A stretch of DNA of 64,000 nt. Origin: Methylocella sp. (GTDB taxonomy: Bacteria; Pseudomonadota; Alphaproteobacteria; Rhizobiales; Beijerinckiaceae). Each line of letters begins with the position of its first letter. The stretch's first letter is position 1. The stretch is taken from the NCBI GenBank assembly GCA_037200525.1, contig JBBCGG010000001.1, positions 2,708,501 through 2,772,500 of the forward strand, read 5' to 3'. The translations under genes were made by a program, and so were the position numbers. Of the stretch, positions 40,508 to 50,285 are shown in pieces. The notes beneath the pieces were generated by a model that saw only the letters and a program-made list of their open reading frames with translations, ran no database searches and was not told where the DNA came from.

Positions 40508-41827
40508 GTGAAGATTCCCTCGTCCCGCTCCGTAGCGCATCAGCCGCTAGCCCTCGTGCATGGCCGCCTCGTTGATGGCGCGGATTTTCGGCAGGAGCCA
40601 GGCGGAGTGCTCATCATCGATGGCGCCATCCGTGATCTTGGCCCGGAAATCACGCCGGAAAATCTCCCCTCGCATGCCCGCATCATCGATTGCGGCGGCG
40701 ATATCGTATCGCCGGGTCTGATTGACATGCGCGCTTTCATCGGGGAGCCAGGCGGCGAACATCGCGAGACCATAGCCACTGCGACGGCGGCGGCGGCGGC
40801 GGGCGGCGTCACCACCATCTTGGCCCGGCCGGACACGTGTCCGCCGGTCGATGAGGCGGCGGTGGTTGATTTTCTGTTGCGCCGCGCCCGCGATACAGGC
40901 CGGGTGCGCGTCATCCCTTCGGCCGCGCTGACGCAAGGGCTGCGCGGCGAGGAAATCGCCGAGATCGGACTTTTGCAGCAGGCCGGCGCGCTCGCCTTTA
41001 CGGATGGCGCCCATTCCATCCGCAATGCGCGGGTGCTGCGCCGCGTCATGAGCTACGCCCGCGATTTTGACGCGCTCATCATCCATTATGCCGAGGACAG
41101 GGATCTTGCCGGCGAAGGCGTGATGAACGAAGGCGAGTTCGCCTCCCGCCTTGGCCTCGCCGGCATTCCCCGCGAGGCGGAAGCCATTATTTTGGATCGC
41201 GACATTCGCCTCGTGAACCTCACGGGCGCGCGCTACCATGCGGCTCTCGTCACCACGACTCTCTCGCTGGAGATCATCGCCCGAGCGAAGGCCGCTGGGC
41301 TGCCTGTGACCTGCGCGACCTCGATCAATCACCTGACCCTCAATGAAAGCGACATCGGCGACTACCGCACCTTTTTGAAGCTCGCGCCCCCGCTGCGGCG
41401 CGAGGATGAGCGCCGGGCGCTCGTTGAAGCGCTGGCCTCGGGCCTCATCGACGTCATTGTGTCGGACCATAATCCGCAGGACGTCGAGACAAAGCGCCTG
41501 CCTTTCGCCGAGGCGGAAGACGGCGCAATCGGGCTCGAAACCATGCTTTCCGCCGGTCTGCGCCTCGTTTCCTCCGGCGAGCTCTCGCTGGAGCGCCTGA
41601 TCGGCGCGATGACCTTGCGTCCCGCAGAAATTTTGGGCCTGCCGCAAGGGCGGCTCAAGATTGGCGCGCCAGCCGATCTCATTCGCTTCGACCCCGACGA
41701 GCCCTATGTCGTCGATCCGGCAAAGCTCCATTCGCGCTGCAAGAACACGCCTTTTGACGAGGCGCGAATGGAGGGCAGGGTGAAGCTGACTTTGGTCGCC
41801 GGGGATATTGTGTACGAGGGGGATTGA
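40508..41827 (+). CDS. pyrC: dihydroorotase-like protein, probably the non-catalytic PyrC' (PyrX) type
   Basis: The 439-residue protein has the amidohydrolase fold of class I dihydroorotases: SPGLIDMRAFIGEPGGEH, TTILARPDTCPPVDEAA, IHYAEDRDLAGEGVMNEG, LKLAPPLRREDERRALVEAL and VSDHNPQDVETKRLPF. The metal-binding HxH normally found in the DxHxHxR motif is replaced here (DMRAF), which is the pattern of pseudo-dihydroorotases that instead support ATCase assembly. It follows pyrB by 96 bases, starts with GTG after GAGCGGAG, and should leave the active dihydroorotase encoded elsewhere. The 3' end is duplicated downstream at 43623-43676. Confidence 0.88.
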   Translation: MKIPSSRSVAHQPLALVHGRLVDGADFRQEPGGVLIIDGAIRDLGPEITPENLPSHARIIDCGGDIVSPGLIDMRAFIGEPGGEHRETIATATAAAAAGGVTTILARPDTCPPVDEAAVVDFLLRRARDTGRVRVIPSAALTQGLRGEEIAEIGLLQQAGALAFTDGAHSIRNARVLRRVMSYARDFDALIIHYAEDRDLAGEGVMNEGEFASRLGLAGIPREAEAIILDRDIRLVNLTGARYHAALVTTTLSLEIIARAKAAGLPVTCATSINHLTLNESDIGDYRTFLKLAPPLRREDERRALVEALASGLIDVIVSDHNPQDVETKRLPFAEAEDGAIGLETMLSAGLRLVSSGELSLERLIGAMTLRPAEILGLPQGRLKIGAPADLIRFDPDEPYVVDPAKLHSRCKNTPFDEARMEGRVKLTLVAGDIVYEGD

Positions 41828-42021
41828 GAAAATGAAATTTTTGAACGAGCAAACAATTGTTCCACAGCTCAGAGAACTCACCAAATCTTCCAGCAGCATA
41901 AGAATAGCGGTTGCCTTTTGGGGAGCTGGCGCTTCAGAGCAGCTTGGGCTTGCCCCGCGAGCGGCAGACAGCAGGATAATTTGTAACCTTAAATCAGGAG
42001 GGACTAATCCGGACGAAATTA

Positions 42022-42859
42022 GGGCCCAGACCCATAAAATGGTTGGCGTGACAGGCGGATTGTGATTCACAGCTTCCGAAAGGAAGCGACTATGAATCGG
42101 GATCAATTCTGGCTGACGGACGCGCAGTTCGCGAAGATCGCGCCGCATCTTCCCACGGACACGCGCGGCAAGGCGCGCGTCGATGATCGCCGGGTGATCA
42201 GCGGGATCATTCATGTGCTGAAATCTGGCGGACGCTGGATTGACGCGCCGCTGGAGTACGGGCCAAAGAAGACTCTCTACAATCGCTACGTTCGCTGGGC
42301 TGCTAAGGGCGTTTGGATCGATCTGTTCCACGCGCTTGCGCAAGCAGGCGGGCCGCCGGCGCAGGTCCTCATCGACTCCTCGGCGGTCAAGGCGCATCGC
42401 TCGGCCAGTGGCGGCAAAGGGGGGAGAAGAATCAGGCCATCGGCCGTTCGCGCGGCGGGCGCACAACCAAAATCCACGCATTGACCGATGCGGACTGCCG
42501 CCCGCTGTCTTTCATGCTCACCGGCGGCCAAATCGCCGATTGCTCGGCGGGCGCGGAGCTTATCGCGCGACTTCCTCCTTGCGAAATCCTCCATGGCGAC
42601 AAGGGCTACGACGCAAATGCGATCCGTCGGCAGGTCGAGGAGCGCGGAGCTATGCCGAATATCCCGCCCAAGGCCAATCGCAGGTGGAAGAACTGCTTCT
42701 CGCCCTTCCTCTATCGAAACCGCAACGCCATCGAACGCATGTTCTGCCGCCTGAAAGACTTCAGGCGCGTGGCTACCCGCTACGACCGAAACGCATTAAA
42801 CTTCCTCGCCACAGTCTGCATCGCCGCTACCGTTTGCTACTGGTTGTGAGTCTGGACCC
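42022..42859 (+). mobile_element. IS5-family (IS427-group-like) insertion sequence, 838 bp
   Basis: Terminal inverted repeats are visible: left GGGCCCAGACCCA (42022-42034) and right, read inward, GGGTCCAGACTCA (42847-42859), 11 of 13 matching. The element is flanked by the dinucleotide TA on both sides (42020-42021 and 42860-42861), the target duplication used by this group. It carries one transposase in two overlapping frames and interrupts a phospholipase D-fold gene. All parts needed for movement appear present. Confidence 0.9.
42092..42849 (+). CDS. IS5-family transposase (two overlapping frames, -1 shift)
   Basis: The upstream frame (42092-42484, 130 residues) has the N-terminal domain and the first catalytic Asp in VLIDSSAVKAHR. 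The downstream frame, ending at 42849, continues KNQAIGRSRGGRTTKIHALTD, with the second Asp in HGDKGYDANAIRRQ and the catalytic Glu in NAIERMFCRLKDFRR. A -1 shift at A3G6 (42416-42424), where AAA-GGG-GGG can slip, joins them into about 252 residues. Such slippage is described for this IS group, so the break is probably programmed rather than damage; a missing G is the alternative. The stop overlaps the right inverted repeat. Confidence 0.85.
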
Positions 42860-43622
42860 TAGGAAATTGATGGATTCTGGAGTCAACGTATCGCAATGTG
42901 ATGGGTTACACAGCAAGGTATATTTGTTTGATAATGATTTAATTATTGGATCTTCGAATGCATCTTCGAATGGGCTTTCAATGGAAGGCTCGAAAATTAA
43001 AGGTTGGTATGAAGCGAATGTTCATACGAACGACGCTGAAATGCTCAAAAGGCTATCACGATGGTTTGAGAAACTGCCTTGTTATAAAATAACTGAAGCA
43101 GATCTGGTGTTGGCGAAAGAAGCGTGGTCGCACAGACGATATAATGGTCATCTAAATATCCCAGAAAACGGCTCTTTGCTTGCGGCATTGAAGGTAGATC
43201 CTTCTTCATTCAAAAACGTGCGGCTATATGTTTGTGCTTTTGCATCTTGGTTTGATAAGAAGGGTGATGAAGCACTTGAAAAGGCTCAATTGAAATTCCA
43301 ATCGGGACACCATCGCATTGATGCCTTTCAAGATTGGTCTGAGCTACCGAATTCTGCCAAATTGGTTTCTTTCTATGTAGGCGATCGAGGAGGTGTGGAA
43401 TTTGATAATTTTGTCGAAATGCCAAATGGACCATTAGAATTTGAGCATAATAAAACTAAACTAAAGCTTTGTTTTATTACGGGATGGATCTTGGTGATTT
43501 CGATGAATGGAAAGCGGCCTTGAAGAAATTCAAGATGGACAGAAATTGGCCCAGACACGGTGGAGGTATAGAAGATATTGGGGTCTTCGCGGAAAAATAT
43601 CTATGTGAGAAGCCAAACTGAT

Positions 43623-43676
43623 AGGGTCAAAGTGATGCTATCGGTTCCGGGCGAGAACGTCTACGAGGGGGAGTAG
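43623..43676 (+). pseudogene. second, divergent copy of the pyrC 3' end
   Basis: Directly after the phospholipase D gene, the frame RVKVMLSVPGENVYEGE-stop resembles the pyrC C-terminus RVKLTLVAGDIVYEGD-stop, about half the residues identical. The 11 bases TACGAGGGGGA occur in both (41813-41823 and 43662-43672). It has no start and is too short to be a gene. The best reading is a leftover pyrC tail marking the right edge of an inserted segment. Confidence 0.6.
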
Positions 43677-43679
43677 GCG

Positions 43680-44111
43680 CTAGCCCTCGCGGTTGGGCGT
43701 CCCGAGAACATGAACGTTCGGCGGCAACATCGCATTGTCGAACGTCTGCGTGAACATTGGCGCGGCGAAGAAAGCCACCGCCCGCAATGTTTCGGCGCCG
43801 GTGTTGACGAGATCGTGCCGGACAGGCGTCGGGAGCACGAAAACGCATCCTGGCCCAACCTTGTGAATGCTTCCGTCCTCCATGCGCAGCTCGCCGCTGC
43901 CCGCCAGGATGTATTGCGTCTCCTCGGTGGCGTCGCTGTGCCAGCCGAGCCGGTGGCCGGGCTCGATTTCATAGACGATGGTCGAAGACTGAGTCGTTCC
44001 ATGCCCGCCATATGCGGCGAACGCGCCGGCCCAACCAACGGTGGGGTCATCTACGCCCCCGACCTTTGCGCGCGGAAGATCTTTGGTTGCGACAACAAAG
44101 ACTGAGTTCAC
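43680..44111 (-). CDS. cupin-domain protein
   Basis: The 143-residue protein has a cupin beta-barrel: HRLGWHSDATEETQYILAGSGELRMEDG supplies the first motif, with metal-ligand His and Glu, and GPGCVFVLPTPVRHDLVNTGAETL the second. The GTG at 44111 has GAGGAGA eight bases upstream and is chosen over an ATG at 44174 that only adds a Pro/Arg-rich leader. The substrate is unknown. It lies on the opposite strand to its neighbours in the accessory block. Confidence 0.78.
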   Translation of the reverse strand: MNSVFVVATKDLPRAKVGGVDDPTVGWAGAFAAYGGHGTTQSSTIVYEIEPGHRLGWHSDATEETQYILAGSGELRMEDGSIHKVGPGCVFVLPTPVRHDLVNTGAETLRAVAFFAAPMFTQTFDNAMLPPNVHVLGTPNREG

Positions 44112-44708
44112 GGCTGTCTCCTCAGGTCGAATCGCCCGTTGGCGGGACGGTTTTGGGTGCGGCAATCGTCGCAATCATGAGCCGCCGGAGAAGGTCACGC
44201 AATGCCGCCGCCCCAAAATATGATGATTTTCATCAGAATTTACTAAACGGCATTCAGCAGGAGCGGCGGCGCGCAACAAAACCAATCGGAATTCAAGTTG
44301 CTAGGAAGGTTGCGCCAGAGTAGCTTTGTAAAGGCGCTTTTTTATCTTGCGGATCGCTAGCAGAGGCGAAGCTGATGCTTAGGCGTAGAAATAACGTCGC
44401 CGCGCTCTTCTTCGGTCCCGCCTCGCCGCCCGTCTATACATTTGGCGGCGCTAAGGCGGTCTATATCGCGCCGGAGCTCCCGCTTAAGGCGCTACCTGAT
44501 CGCTTCGGCCTAAGCGCATTGCGCGATCAGCATATTTCATACCTCTATGGCTCGGCAGTTCTCGGCAAAGCCAAAGCCAAAGCCGCAGCCCCGAAGTTCA
44601 ACCAGCAATGGAGGAATTGAGACGAGCGCGACGCCTCGCCGATGATCCGTTAGCGTAAGCATCTTCAAAAGGCGGTAGGGACTAACCACCCAAACATGGA
44701 GGAGACGC
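44112..44708. other. 597-base intergenic region with one doubtful small frame
   Basis: Between the divergent cupin and sulfatase genes I find a possible terminator (44312-44343) and an 81-codon plus-strand frame (44375-44620) starting MLRRRNNVAALFFGPASP. That frame lacks a clear ribosome-binding site and resembles no family I know, so it is not called as a gene. The last 30 bases hold the sulfatase ribosome-binding site GGAGGAG. Confidence 0.5.
44312..44343 (+). terminator. possible rho-independent terminator
   Basis: GCGCC (44312-44316) pairs with GGCGC (44333-44337) across a 16-base loop, followed by six T. The stem is short, so it is a weak call. Confidence 0.35.
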
Positions 44709-46385
44709 ATGAAAATCACGCCTCTAAGATCGGCGATGCTCGGCGCAATCGCGGGGCTCGCCATTTTGGCCCTGGCCGGTCCTACGGCGGCTCAGGAAAA
44801 GAAGCCCAATATCCTCATCATCATGGGCGATGACGTTGGATGGTTCAATATCGGCGCGTACCATCAGGGCATCATGTCGGGCAAGACGCCGAACCTCGAC
44901 AAGCTCGCCGCCGAAGGCATGCGATTCACCGATTATTACGCCGAAGCGAGCTGTACGGCGGGCCGCGCGAACTTTATAACCGGCGAGCTGCCGATCCGCA
45001 CCGGATTGACGACTGTCGGTCAGGCCGGGGCCGACGTTGGGCTCCCCGCCGAGGCCGTAACGCTCGCCACGGTGCTGAAGTCGCTGGGGTACGAGACCGG
45101 GCAATTCGGCAAAAACCATCTCGGAGATCTCAACAAATTCCTGCCGACGGTTCACGGCTTCGACGAATTTTTTGGGTATCTCTACCATCTCGATGCGATG
45201 TCGGACCCTTACTGGTTCGATTACCCGCAGGATTGGATCAATAAATACGGGCCGCGCGATCTGGTGCATTCCTGGGCGACAACCGAGGACGACGCCACCG
45301 AGATGCCGCGATGGGGCAAGGTCGGCAAGCAGAGAATTGTCGATGAAGGTCCGCTAGCCCCGTTCCCGAGCATGGCCGGCCGCCAGAACTGGCAGGAGAG
45401 CCGCAAAGCCAAATTTGACATGGAGACCTTCGACGAGGTGCTGGTTAGGGCCAGCGAAGGCTTCATGGACAAAGCCAAGCAGGACGGCAAGCCGTTCTTC
45501 ATCTGGCACAACACGACGCGCATGCACGTGTTCACCTACATCCCGCCAAAGTACCAGGCGCTGATGAACTACAAGAGCAATTACGGCCTTGAGGAAGCCG
45601 GCATGGCGCAGTTGGACGACAGCATCGGCGACTTGCTGAAGCATCTGCAGGATATCGGCGAGGCCGACAACACCATCGTCATATTCACCACTGACAACGG
45701 GGCCGAGGTGTTCACTTGGCCAGATGGCGGCATGACGCCGTTCCGGTCAACGAAGGGCACGGTATTTGAGGGCGGTTTTCGCGTGCCCGCGATCATTCGC
45801 TGGCCCGGCAAGATCAAGCCGCAAACAGTGGAGAACGGCATATTTTCCGGTCTCGACTGGCTCCCGACGCTCGCGGCCGCCGCAGGCAACCCCGACATCT
45901 CCAATCAGCTGCTGAAAGGCGTGAAGCTCGGCGATCAAACCTACAAGAATCACCTCGACGGCTACAATCAGATGGATCTCCTGCTCGGCAAGGGACCCTC
46001 CGCGCGTCACGAGCTTTTCTACTTTGGCGGTCCGCACCTCGGAGCGCTGCGAATCGATGACTTCAAGTTCCAGTTCTTTCAGCAACCTTATGGCTGGCCC
46101 GGGGAGAAGGTGACGACGGATATGCCGACTATCGTCAACCTCCGCCAAGATCCGTTTGAGCGGACGCCATCGATACGCGGTCAAACGCTCAATGACGCAG
46201 GTGGGGGGTATATGAATGATTTCATGGCGCGTGAGTTCTGGCGCTTCGTTCTCGTTCAGAAGCAAGTGGCGGCGCTTGCGGAAACAGCCATCGACTTTCC
46301 TCCGATGCAGGCTCCTGCAACTTTCAATCTCGAGGCGGTGAAGCGTTCGGTGGAGGAGATGATGAAGAGCCACGAAGGCCAATAG
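44709..46385 (+). CDS. secreted sulfatase (arylsulfatase family)
   Basis: The 558-residue protein has a signal peptide (residues 1-29, AGLAILALAGPTAAQ) and a type I sulfatase domain. Metal-binding IIMGDDVGW and the formylglycine motif CTAGR (C82, of the CxAxR type rather than CxPxR) are clear, as are GQFGKNHLGD, FFIWHNTTRMHVF and IVIFTTDNGAE. It should hydrolyse sulfate esters in the periplasm after the cysteine is oxidised to formylglycine. No sulfatase-maturing enzyme gene is adjacent. GGAGGAG precedes the ATG. It is part of the accessory block between pyrC and plsY and is followed by a strong hairpin. Confidence 0.93.
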   Translation: MKITPLRSAMLGAIAGLAILALAGPTAAQEKKPNILIIMGDDVGWFNIGAYHQGIMSGKTPNLDKLAAEGMRFTDYYAEASCTAGRANFITGELPIRTGLTTVGQAGADVGLPAEAVTLATVLKSLGYETGQFGKNHLGDLNKFLPTVHGFDEFFGYLYHLDAMSDPYWFDYPQDWINKYGPRDLVHSWATTEDDATEMPRWGKVGKQRIVDEGPLAPFPSMAGRQNWQESRKAKFDMETFDEVLVRASEGFMDKAKQDGKPFFIWHNTTRMHVFTYIPPKYQALMNYKSNYGLEEAGMAQLDDSIGDLLKHLQDIGEADNTIVIFTTDNGAEVFTWPDGGMTPFRSTKGTVFEGGFRVPAIIRWPGKIKPQTVENGIFSGLDWLPTLAAAAGNPDISNQLLKGVKLGDQTYKNHLDGYNQMDLLLGKGPSARHELFYFGGPHLGALRIDDFKFQFFQQPYGWPGEKVTTDMPTIVNLRQDPFERTPSIRGQTLNDAGGGYMNDFMAREFWRFVLVQKQVAALAETAIDFPPMQAPATFNLEAVKRSVEEMMKSHEGQ

Positions 46386-46390
46386 TCGTT

Positions 46391-46413
46391 CGGGCGGCGT
46401 TAGGCGCCGCCCG
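46391..46413 (+). terminator. hairpin downstream of the sulfatase gene
   Basis: A perfect 9-bp GC stem, CGGGCGGCG (46391-46399) with CGCCGCCCG (46405-46413) and loop TTAGG, begins six bases after the stop codon. No T run follows, so termination efficiency is uncertain. Confidence 0.55.
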
Positions 46414-46490
46414 CTCGTCCGCCCGCGCCGAGTTGCCACCCAAACTCCCGCAAGCTAGGTTGAGACCGCCTTCTCGCCACGGATTCCCAC

Positions 46491-47105
46491 GTGATCCTCA
46501 CCCTTGTCGCCCTCGTCTTCGGCTATCTTTGCGGTTCGATTCCGTTTGGGCTCATTCTCACGACCTTCGCCGGAACCACGGACCTGCGTTCGATTGGTTC
46601 GGGCAACATTGGCGCGACGAATGTTTTGCGCACGGGGCGGAAAGATTTAGCCGCTCTGACATTGCTGCTTGATCTCGCCAAAGGCGCGATCGCTGTTCTG
46701 ATCGTCGCTTATCTTGCGCAGCGCTGGCTTTCGCCGGATGGCTCCTCACCGCGGGGCCCTATGCTGGCGGCGGCGGCCGGCGCCTTTTTGGGCCATGTGT
46801 TTCCGGTCTGGCTCGGGTTCAAGGGCGGCAAGGGCGTTGCGACATTTTTGGGCTGCCTTCTCGCCATCGCGTGGCCGGCCGGGCTCGCCTTCATCGCGGT
46901 CTGGCTCGGCGTTGCGGGGATCACGCGCTTTTCGTCGCTTGCGGCGCTGCTGGCCAGCGCTCTCGCGCCCGCCTTTCTTTTCGCCTTGGGTCAGACCGAT
47001 TCGGCGATCGTTTTTGCCGCGTTGGCGGCGATTCTTTGGTACAAGCACCGGCCCAATATCGCGCGCCTTAGAGCCGGGACGGAATCCCGGATCGGCAAGT
47101 CTTGA
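46491..47105 (+). CDS. plsY: glycerol-3-phosphate acyltransferase PlsY
   Basis: The 204-residue membrane enzyme acylates glycerol 3-phosphate from acyl phosphate, the first step of phospholipid synthesis. Motifs are [24 protein letters not shown] and [12 protein letters not shown], within several hydrophobic segments. The start is GTG at 46491. In many relatives plsY directly follows pyrC; here it is separated from it by the accessory block. The dprA frame begins within its last codons. Confidence 0.93.
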
Positions 47106-48413
47106 CGCCGAAAGTCTTGACGCCGCAAACCTTGACGCAGAAAGCCTCGATGCTCCCGGCTTTCGCCGTGGAGGCCAAGAATCCGCTCACCGAGGCGGAG
47201 CGGTTCGACTGGCTGCGGCTGTCCCGCAGCGATAATGTCGGCCCGCGCACGTTTTCCGCTCTCCTGAGCCGTTATGGGAGCGCCGCCGCGGCGCTCGAGG
47301 CTTTGCCGGGGCTGATCGCCAGCGGCAAGCCGATTCGCATCGCGACTATCGCGGAAGTCGACCAGGAACTCGAGGAATTGCGCCGTTCAGGCGCGGTTCT
47401 GCTCGGAGTTTACGAGCCCGACTATCCCGCGCTGCTGCGACAAATCAATACGGCCCCGCCTCTCATTACCGTGCGCGGCGATCTTTCGTCGCTGCGCCGC
47501 TCCAAGGTTGCGATAGTCGGTTCGCGCAACGCCTCGGCGGCGGGGCTCGCTTTTACCGAGCAGATTTCGCGCGGCATTGCGCGGGCCGGGCATGTCATCG
47601 TTTCTGGACTGGCGCGAGGGATCGACGCGCGGGCGCACCAGGCGGCGCTGGAGACGGGGACGATCGCCGTGCTGGCCGGGCGGATTAGGCAATATTTATC
47701 CGGCCAATCACGCGGCTTTGCTGGAGCGCCTGCTGGAGCATGGCGCCGCGATCAGCGAAATGCCTTTTGCCTGGGAGGCGCGCGGCCGCGACTTTCCGCG
47801 ACGCAACCGCATTGTCGCCGGGCTCTCGCGCGGAATCGTAGTCGTTGAGGCGGCGCGCCGTTCGGGTTCGCTGATCACTGCGAGTTTTGCCGCCGAGCAG
47901 GGCCGCGAAATCTTCGCGGTTCCCGGCTCGGCGCTCGATCCGCGCGCGGAAGGCCCGAATGATCTGTTGCGCGATGGCGCGACTTTCTGCACCAAGGCGG
48001 AGGATGTGCTGGACGCCTTGGCCAATCAGAATCTCTCGCCGGACCATCGCCTTGGCTTTTCTGAACCGGATTTTTCGAACCAATCTTACGTCCCGCTGTG
48101 GGACGAACTCGATCTGCCCGAACTTGCTGGCGCCTCTCCCTCGGGCCCCTCGATCGATGACGGAGCCTTTTTGGCCGAAATCGACGCGATTGAGGAGGAG
48201 TTTGCGCCGCCGCTCGATGCGGCGCCGGCCATCCCAACGCGGGAAGAAGTCGCAATGCGCGTTATGGAATTGTTGGGGCCGACGCCGGTCTCCGTCGACG
48301 AATTGATCCGCGCATCGGAGGCCCCGGCGCGGGAGGTTCGAACTATTTTGTTCGAGCTTGAACTCGCCGGCCAAATCGAGCGCCATGGCGGCGATCTCGT
48401 TTCGCTGATTTAA
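47102..48413 (+). pseudogene. dprA: DNA processing protein DprA, with one frameshift
   Basis: DprA loads RecA onto incoming single-stranded DNA during transformation. The first frame has EAERFDWLRLSRSDNVGPRTF and the Rossmann fold start KVAIVGSRNASAAG and HVIVSGLARGIDARAHQ, up to IAVLAG. The next frame continues GLGNIYPANHAALLE and SEMPFAWEARGRDFPRRNRIVAGLS to a C-terminal winged-helix domain. Removing one G from the GGG at 47678-47680 restores a 436-codon frame (a start at 47150 would shorten it by 16). The initial TTG overlaps the plsY stop, and the first 15 codons are three copies of a 15-base repeat, so the later start may be the true one. Confidence 0.88.
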
Positions 48414-49783: not shown

Positions 49784-49807
49784 CTCAGTTCACCGGAAGC
49801 GCGGCTG

Positions 49808-50285
49808 TCATTCGATCACAAAGAGCGGTTGGCCGTATTCCACGGGCTGCCCATCCTCGACCAGAATGCTCGTCACCGTGCCGGGGCGCGGGCGCAACGA
49901 TTTCATTGAACGTCTTCATGGCCTCGACAAGAAGGAGTTTGTCCCCGGCCTTTACCTGCGAGCCGATTTCGACGAAAGGCGCCGCCTCGGGCGAAGCGCG
50001 GAGATAGGCCGTGCCGACCATCGGCGATTTGACGGCTCCAGGCGCGCTAACTTCGGCGGCGGCAGTCGCCCCCGCGGGCGCGACTGCCGGAGAGGCGGCG
50101 GCGGTAAGGGGCTGAGCTGCAGCGACCGTCAGCTGCCGCGCGACGCGAACTTTGAGGTCGCCATGCGCAACTTCGATCTCGGAAAGCCCAAGACGCGTAA
50201 TAATTTTAGCCAGCGTCTCGATAAGCTCGGTATCGATCGCGCTCGCAACAGAATTCCCGGCCGGTTTAGGCCCCGTATATTTCAT
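49808..50285 (-). pseudogene. accB: acetyl-CoA carboxylase biotin carboxyl carrier protein, with one frameshift
   Basis: The protein carries biotin between AccC and the carboxyltransferase. The N-terminal helix, a Pro/Ala-rich linker and the biotinyl site LLLVEAMKTFNEI (biotinylated Lys) are in one frame. Immediately after NEIVAPAP the frame is lost, and the expected C-terminus GTVTSILVEDGQPVEYGQPL is found in the next frame, ending at 49808. Deleting one G from the run at 49883-49886 (plus strand) restores 158 residues. Since AccB is essential, an error in the sequence is the simplest explanation. Confidence 0.92.

Follow-up and report, generated by a model that had tools for sequence, protein, structure and literature searches.

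In SauUSI, the type IV restriction enzyme of Staphylococcus (PDB 7clg), a phospholipase D (PLD) nuclease domain that dimerizes, an ATPase and an SRA domain follow one another in a single chain (PMC7913695). PLD nucleases with a single HKD motif dimerize and build their active site jointly (PMC7913695); nucleases of this type require no metal (PMC11037411). In many modification-dependent restriction enzymes the reader domain comes from the PUA superfamily, which includes SRA (PMC12707154, PMC11037411). Fusions of an EVE domain to a PLD nuclease (EVE-PLDc) have been predicted to be type IV enzymes (PMC7641849). In BfiI, the R protein of NgoAVII and NgoFVII, the PLD nuclease is followed by a B3-like DNA-recognition domain (PMC7913695 for NgoAVII/CglI), with no ATPase in the same chain. 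VcaM4I (EVE-HNH) and TagI (SRA-HNH) are stand-alone, ATP-independent nucleases in which a PUA reader is paired with an HNH nuclease, and DrmC of DISARM and DpdK are PLD-type defence proteins that work within multi-gene systems.

The locus described here contains a broken gene whose family resembles each of these systems in part. SauUSI is nearest to its N-terminal PLD nuclease by both profile and fold, and both have a C-terminal domain of the PUA superfamily, predicted in the case of the present family; however, the SF2 ATPase and the coupler domain of SauUSI are missing from the family, and its C-terminal domain is not recognizable as SRA by sequence. At 297-423 aa the homologues are too short for the PLD-ATPase(SF2)-SRA architecture, and those members that were scanned with Pfam gave no helicase match. 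The combination of a PLD nuclease and a putative PUA-superfamily reader in one chain is shared with the predicted EVE-PLDc fusions (PMC7641849), although the Pfam EVE model misses the C-terminal domain of the present family. BfiI, NgoAVII and NgoFVII have the same arrangement of a PLD nuclease before a recognition domain without an ATPase in the chain, but that domain is B3-like in those enzymes and predicted to be PUA-like here, and no linked methyltransferase recurs beside the homologues. VcaM4I and TagI have the two-domain, stand-alone, ATP-independent layout of a nuclease and a PUA reader that is predicted here, but they differ in their nuclease (HNH instead of PLD) and in domain order. 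The PADLOC models of DrmC and DpdK match several family members weakly, whereas the family is without the conserved partner genes of such systems: drmA, drmB and the methyltransferase of DISARM were not found in the surroundings of the gene in the window, and no partner recurs in 84 homologue loci.

The window is the whole 64,000-nucleotide stretch of Methylocella sp. DNA that was analyzed. The PLD-family gene begins in it with an ATG at 41832, 4 nt past the stop codon of pyrC, in a host locus whose gene order, pyrB-pyrC-plsY-dprA, is conserved in comparison with relatives, and it is interrupted by an insertion sequence (IS; Table 1). Excision of 840 nt joins its two reading frames into an ORF of 283 codons, and the junction is continuous with the homologues, as a single tblastn match (query residues 1-264) crosses it. 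A preliminary description of this DNA had proposed that an IS breaks a PLD-fold gene and that removal of 840 bases, an 838-bp element plus one TA, restores the frame; the element ends, the TA duplication and the joined frames all agree with this. The product length of 316 residues given in that description has to be corrected: the interval 41832-43621 less 840 is 950 nt, which is not a multiple of three, so position 43621 lies in another frame and the rejoined ORF ends at 43523 after 283 aa.

Table 1. Features of the interrupted PLD-family gene and its surroundings (window coordinates).
Feature	Coordinates	Strand	Remarks
pyrB			precedes pyrC; NCBIfam E 5e-124
pyrC (dihydroorotase)	40508-41827	+	NCBIfam PRK09059 E 6e-193; host gene directly upstream of the PLD-family gene
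PLD-family gene, 5' part	41832-42021	+	ends with the TA target included; 52% identity to Methylosinus homologue residues 1-63
IS, IS5 family (IS427-like), 838 bp	42022-42859	+	43 genome matches; TA at 42020-42021 and 42860-42861
Transposase ORF A (DUF4096) of the IS	42092-42484	+	Pfam PF13340 E 2e-21; NCBIfam IS5_3 E 3e-31
Transposase ORF B (DDE domain) of the IS	42313-42849	+	Pfam DDE_Tnp_1 E 8e-14; NCBIfam transpos_IS5_3 E 7e-48
PLD-family gene, 3' part	42862-43523	+	frame continues that of the 5' part; stop 43521-43523
Catalytic block LHSKVYLF...GSSNASSNG...GWYE	42906-43013	+	all six residues (H, K, S, N, S, E) intact here and unchanged across the 60 aligned sequences
Putative C-terminal PUA-like domain, in-frame part	43143-43520	+	phmmer and fold of homologue model
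Remainder of C-terminal domain, other frame	43481-43621	+	beyond second frame break at ~43470-43490
Probable decayed second pyrC 3' end (...VYEGE stop)	43622-43676	+	11-bp exact core TACGAGGGGGA
Cupin gene, next resident gene	43680-44174	-	several genomes of the genus likewise have it in the pyrC-plsY gap
dprA	47102-48413	+	split over two frames around 47690 in comparison with relatives
accB	49785-50285	-	split over two frames after ...MKTFNEIVAP

The element has the IS5-type DDE transposase, the length (~0.8 kb), the two ORFs, which overlap, the terminal inverted repeats and the TA duplication of an IS427-like member of the IS5 family. Its ends (GGGCCCAGACCC...GAGTCTGGACCC) form imperfect terminal inverted repeats, GGG(C/T)CCAGAC(C/T)C. 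All ten of the further copies inspected share these ends and are inserted at Y-TA-R, with the TA duplicated. The 5.24-Mb genome contains 43 copies, and since ~35 of these are near full length and 99-100% identical, the insertion in the PLD-family gene is recent. The gene is a real accessory gene inactivated by an IS, and it is not expected to work in this strain. The IS is its only certain lesion. No IS-free allele was found in the close relatives searched, because none of them carries the gene. For the genome as a whole, the ~35 nearly identical copies of the IS427-like element are a sign of a recent burst.

The PLD-family gene has a second frame break, evident from the other-frame stretch at 43481-43618, which is similar to the corresponding tail of the homologue from Methylosinus sporium (DSM 17706). 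The nearby accB and dprA genes are each split over two frames as well (Table 1), and accB has no second copy, being the sole fatty-acid-type biotin carboxyl carrier that the genome was found to encode. The breaks in accB and dprA are probably assembly indels. As two genes nearby are broken likewise, and a split sole accB would hardly be survivable for the cell, the second break in the PLD-family gene may be an assembly indel just as well as a true lesion.

The features of a PLD nuclease of the Nuc/SauUSI type, an HxK motif, a (G)SxN motif and a downstream glutamate in one copy per chain, together with the PLD nuclease fold, were all found in the family. His80, Lys82, Ser94, Asn96, Ser98 and Glu114 (H-x-K...S-x-N-x-S...E) are invariant in 60 aligned sequences, the window piece included. 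Pfam matches of the 3' part to PLDc_2 (E 6e-6) and RE_NgoFVII (E 1e-4) lay slightly under the cut-offs, and when the family profile was compared with the PDB, SauUSI (7clg) was the nearest solved structure by sequence (E 5e-7). Structure models were built on intact homologues, and the rejoined window protein served as a search query only. The model of the Methylosinus homologue had a mean pLDDT of 80, with most of the PLD domain above 90, and its N-terminal domain matched SauUSI (Z 15.9 over 141 residues, 2.5 Å), NucT (15.6), Nuc (15.5), BfiI (13.8) and the NgoAVII R protein (12.1). The assignment of a PLD-type nuclease fold to the N-terminal domain is firm on these models, and the invariant catalytic residues and the matches to SauUSI, Nuc, NucT and BfiI make the prediction that the PLD-family proteins are nucleases a well supported one.

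The C-terminal region encoded in the window was matched by phmmer to the C-terminal domains of three homologues (L116, L101 and L091; E 7e-10 to 1e-7). When the C-terminal ~150 aa of a second homologue were modelled alone, a pLDDT of 94 was obtained, and ~45 of the best 50 Foldseek rows for this model were ASCH or SRA chains. In a second fold search nearly all rows belonged to ASCH, EVE, YTH and SRA domains and to nucleases that depend on modification, such as VcaM4I and an enzyme specific for 5hmC, and the full-length model of the Methylosinus homologue also matched EVE and YTH entries. The single matches are weak (best Foldseek E 0.014; Z no higher than 5.4 over 107-110 residues at ~4.5 Å rmsd), and models that have no clear match often reach a best Z above 5.4. 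The uniformity of the match list and the agreement between the models of two different proteins nevertheless suggest, at the level of fold, that the domain is PUA-like (ASCH/SRA/EVE/YTH superfamily). None of the Pfam EVE, ASCH, SRA and YTH models matched the domain by sequence, and a sequence search of Pfam and the PDB returned no PUA-type match, which does not speak against the fold. Among the fold-search rows there were no B3-like domains, an absence that does not amount to exclusion, and no modified-base pocket was identified in the domain. The preliminary description had noted one HKD motif and no recognizable partner domain; the single motif of this type (LHSKVYLFDNDLIIGSSNAS) is present, whereas the second statement gives way to the PUA-like domain found by the fold of the homologue models.

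The family profile recovered 80 loci in bacterial genomes and four in viral contigs, and phage records gave no homologue match. The window piece used as a direct query against genome contigs gave no match, and the family profile was required. Homologues have a median length of 336 aa (10th-90th percentile, 297-423 aa) and occur on plasmids too, where they are annotated 'phospholipase D family protein'; Pseudomonas plasmid pQBR103 carries one. Among genomes of the same taxonomic family, searched with the window piece, 8 of 248 carry a homologue. With a strict profile cut-off, homologues were found in 5 of 397 genomes of the order sample and 2 of 385 of the class sample (own genome included), both lower bounds, as scoring was limited to the best candidates of each genome. 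The homologues are thus sporadic, accessory genes, present in ~1-3% of the genomes searched. No conserved partner gene was found: no neighbour family occurs in more than 4 of the 84 loci, and tight same-strand neighbours fall into groups no larger than three. A multi-gene system or a toxin-antitoxin pair was dropped as a candidate, given the lack of a conserved partner in the 84 loci. Some immediate neighbours, counted without a background control, are Gabija, type I restriction-modification, DRT-type and MADS-like proteins and integrases.

The reading we favor, with a probability of roughly 0.55, is that the gene is an inactivated copy from a family of stand-alone PLD plus PUA-like proteins that have no ATPase and are most likely modification-dependent (type IV) restriction nucleases. 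The intact protein would have ~320-410 residues in two domains. As each chain has one H-x-K...S-x-N motif, the N-terminal PLD domain, of the Nuc/SauUSI type, would be expected to dimerize, the two chains sharing one active site, and this dimer would cut without metal via a covalent phospho-histidine intermediate. The C-terminal PUA-like domain would be the target reader, flipping out and recognizing a modified base in the DNA of an invading phage or plasmid, and this recognition would license the PLD dimer to cut nearby. Base reading, dimerization and a role in defence are what we infer for the family. Type IV enzymes need no cognate methyltransferase, and none is recurrently linked to the homologues, no neighbour family being present in more than 4 of the 84 loci. 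The reading makes a specific prediction, namely the cutting of modified DNA.

A further step, which can be taken only tentatively, would be to see in the family a class of single-protein restriction enzymes not described before, independent of ATP, in which a new, highly divergent PUA-type reader of a DNA or RNA modification found in proteobacterial phages would steer a metal-independent PLD nuclease. PUA-superfamily domains read RNA as well as DNA, and YTH and ASCH entries are among the fold matches; single-HKD PLD nucleases can be non-specific, and some homologues adjoin defence genes. These observations would also be compatible with a non-specific or RNA-directed PLD nuclease that acts in abortive infection, the C-terminal domain sensing a sign of infection or else a modified RNA in the manner of YTH or EVE domains. 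However, no partner sensor gene accompanies the 84 loci and the closest relative by sequence is a DNA restriction enzyme, and we consider this explanation unlikely.

Slightly less probable again is a sequence-specific PLD restriction nuclease of the BfiI/NgoAVII kind, which would read unmodified DNA and be restrained by a methyltransferase or helicase encoded elsewhere in the genome. The order of domains, PLD and then reader, is identical, the 3' part matches RE_NgoFVII in Pfam, and the PLD domain is similar in fold to those of BfiI and the NgoAVII R protein. Against this, neither a methyltransferase nor a helicase is recurrently linked to the gene in the 84 loci, and the C-terminal domain matches ASCH, SRA, EVE and YTH folds.

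The PLD-family gene appears to have been acquired horizontally, to have landed behind pyrC and later to have been broken by the IS427-like element. Its right part has a GC content of 40.4%, the lowest of any 760-nt stretch in the window (mean 60.4%, sd 3.5), and in 58 of 75 loci the homologue has a lower GC content than the sequence flanking it (p ~1e-8). The gene is absent from 13 same-genus genomes, both anywhere and behind pyrC, two of the contigs in the latter check ending shortly after pyrC. Low GC, absence from the same-genus genomes searched and sporadic relatives bear out the preliminary description, which had called the gene AT-rich and transferred. That description had also suggested a possible nuclease or defence factor; the nuclease is upheld by the catalytic residues and the SauUSI, Nuc, NucT and BfiI matches, and defence is plausible on indirect grounds, some neighbours of homologues being the defence genes listed above without a background control. 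Of the two findings that it held would speak against it, homologues that are solely housekeeping phospholipases did not turn up, the homologues being accessory, and the absence of empty sites did not arise either, as gene-free sites exist in relatives; an IS-free allele of this gene, however, was not found in a close relative.

The gene probably sits between two pyrC tails, one a decayed copy, judging from the sequence at 43622-43676. This segment has the register and stop position of the pyrC 3' end, with a score matched by 8 of 19,348 random 61-mers from the window, and it scores 33 against the pyrC tail of a relative and 25 against the window's own. In Methylosinus sporium the homologue is a clean, solitary insertion exactly behind the stop codon of lhr; the sites in sister genomes are near-empty, and no flank duplication was found. 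In a Microvirga MAG it is a clean, solitary insertion between ureB and ureC. Such insertions, with the probable duplication of the pyrC tail, are what would be expected of a self-mobile gene that spreads like a free-standing homing endonuclease, its cuts falling at host-gene 3' ends. This is improbable, however, as the insertion sites are unrelated to one another, the lhr site has no flank duplication, and the ureB-ureC slot of a sister genome holds a different accessory pair, which argues that the slot and not the gene is permissive. That pair, in place of the PLD homologue (locus L077, G036), is an AbrB/VapC-like (VapBC-like) toxin-antitoxin pair. The pyrC-plsY stretch (41827-46491, compared with loci L037-L049) is a variable cargo space in the genus, its size and genes differing by genome; in other families pyrC and plsY adjoin each other.

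A housekeeping or lipid-acting enzyme of the phospholipase or cardiolipin synthase kind, to which the record annotation 'phospholipase D family protein' and the common fold would point, can be dismissed as highly improbable, as it is already contradicted by best matches that are nucleases and by a distribution of ~1-3% of the genomes searched, with absence from close relatives, and as each chain has a single HKD motif whose spacing is that of nucleases. The stand-alone genes of this name in many proteobacteria are annotated as if they acted on lipids, and Pfam and NCBIfam name the family no further than the PLD fold; the data presented here indicate nucleases with a likely base-reader domain. 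The copy in the window is such a gene in the course of being lost to an insertion element. A broken copy is ordinary in itself, and its interest is a moderate one, as a pointer to a widespread, misnamed family with a testable prediction.

Residues 315-408 of the Methylosinus protein match a fragment on Methylosinus trichosporium plasmids that is annotated 'recombinase', and several other homologues are likewise 410-430 aa long.
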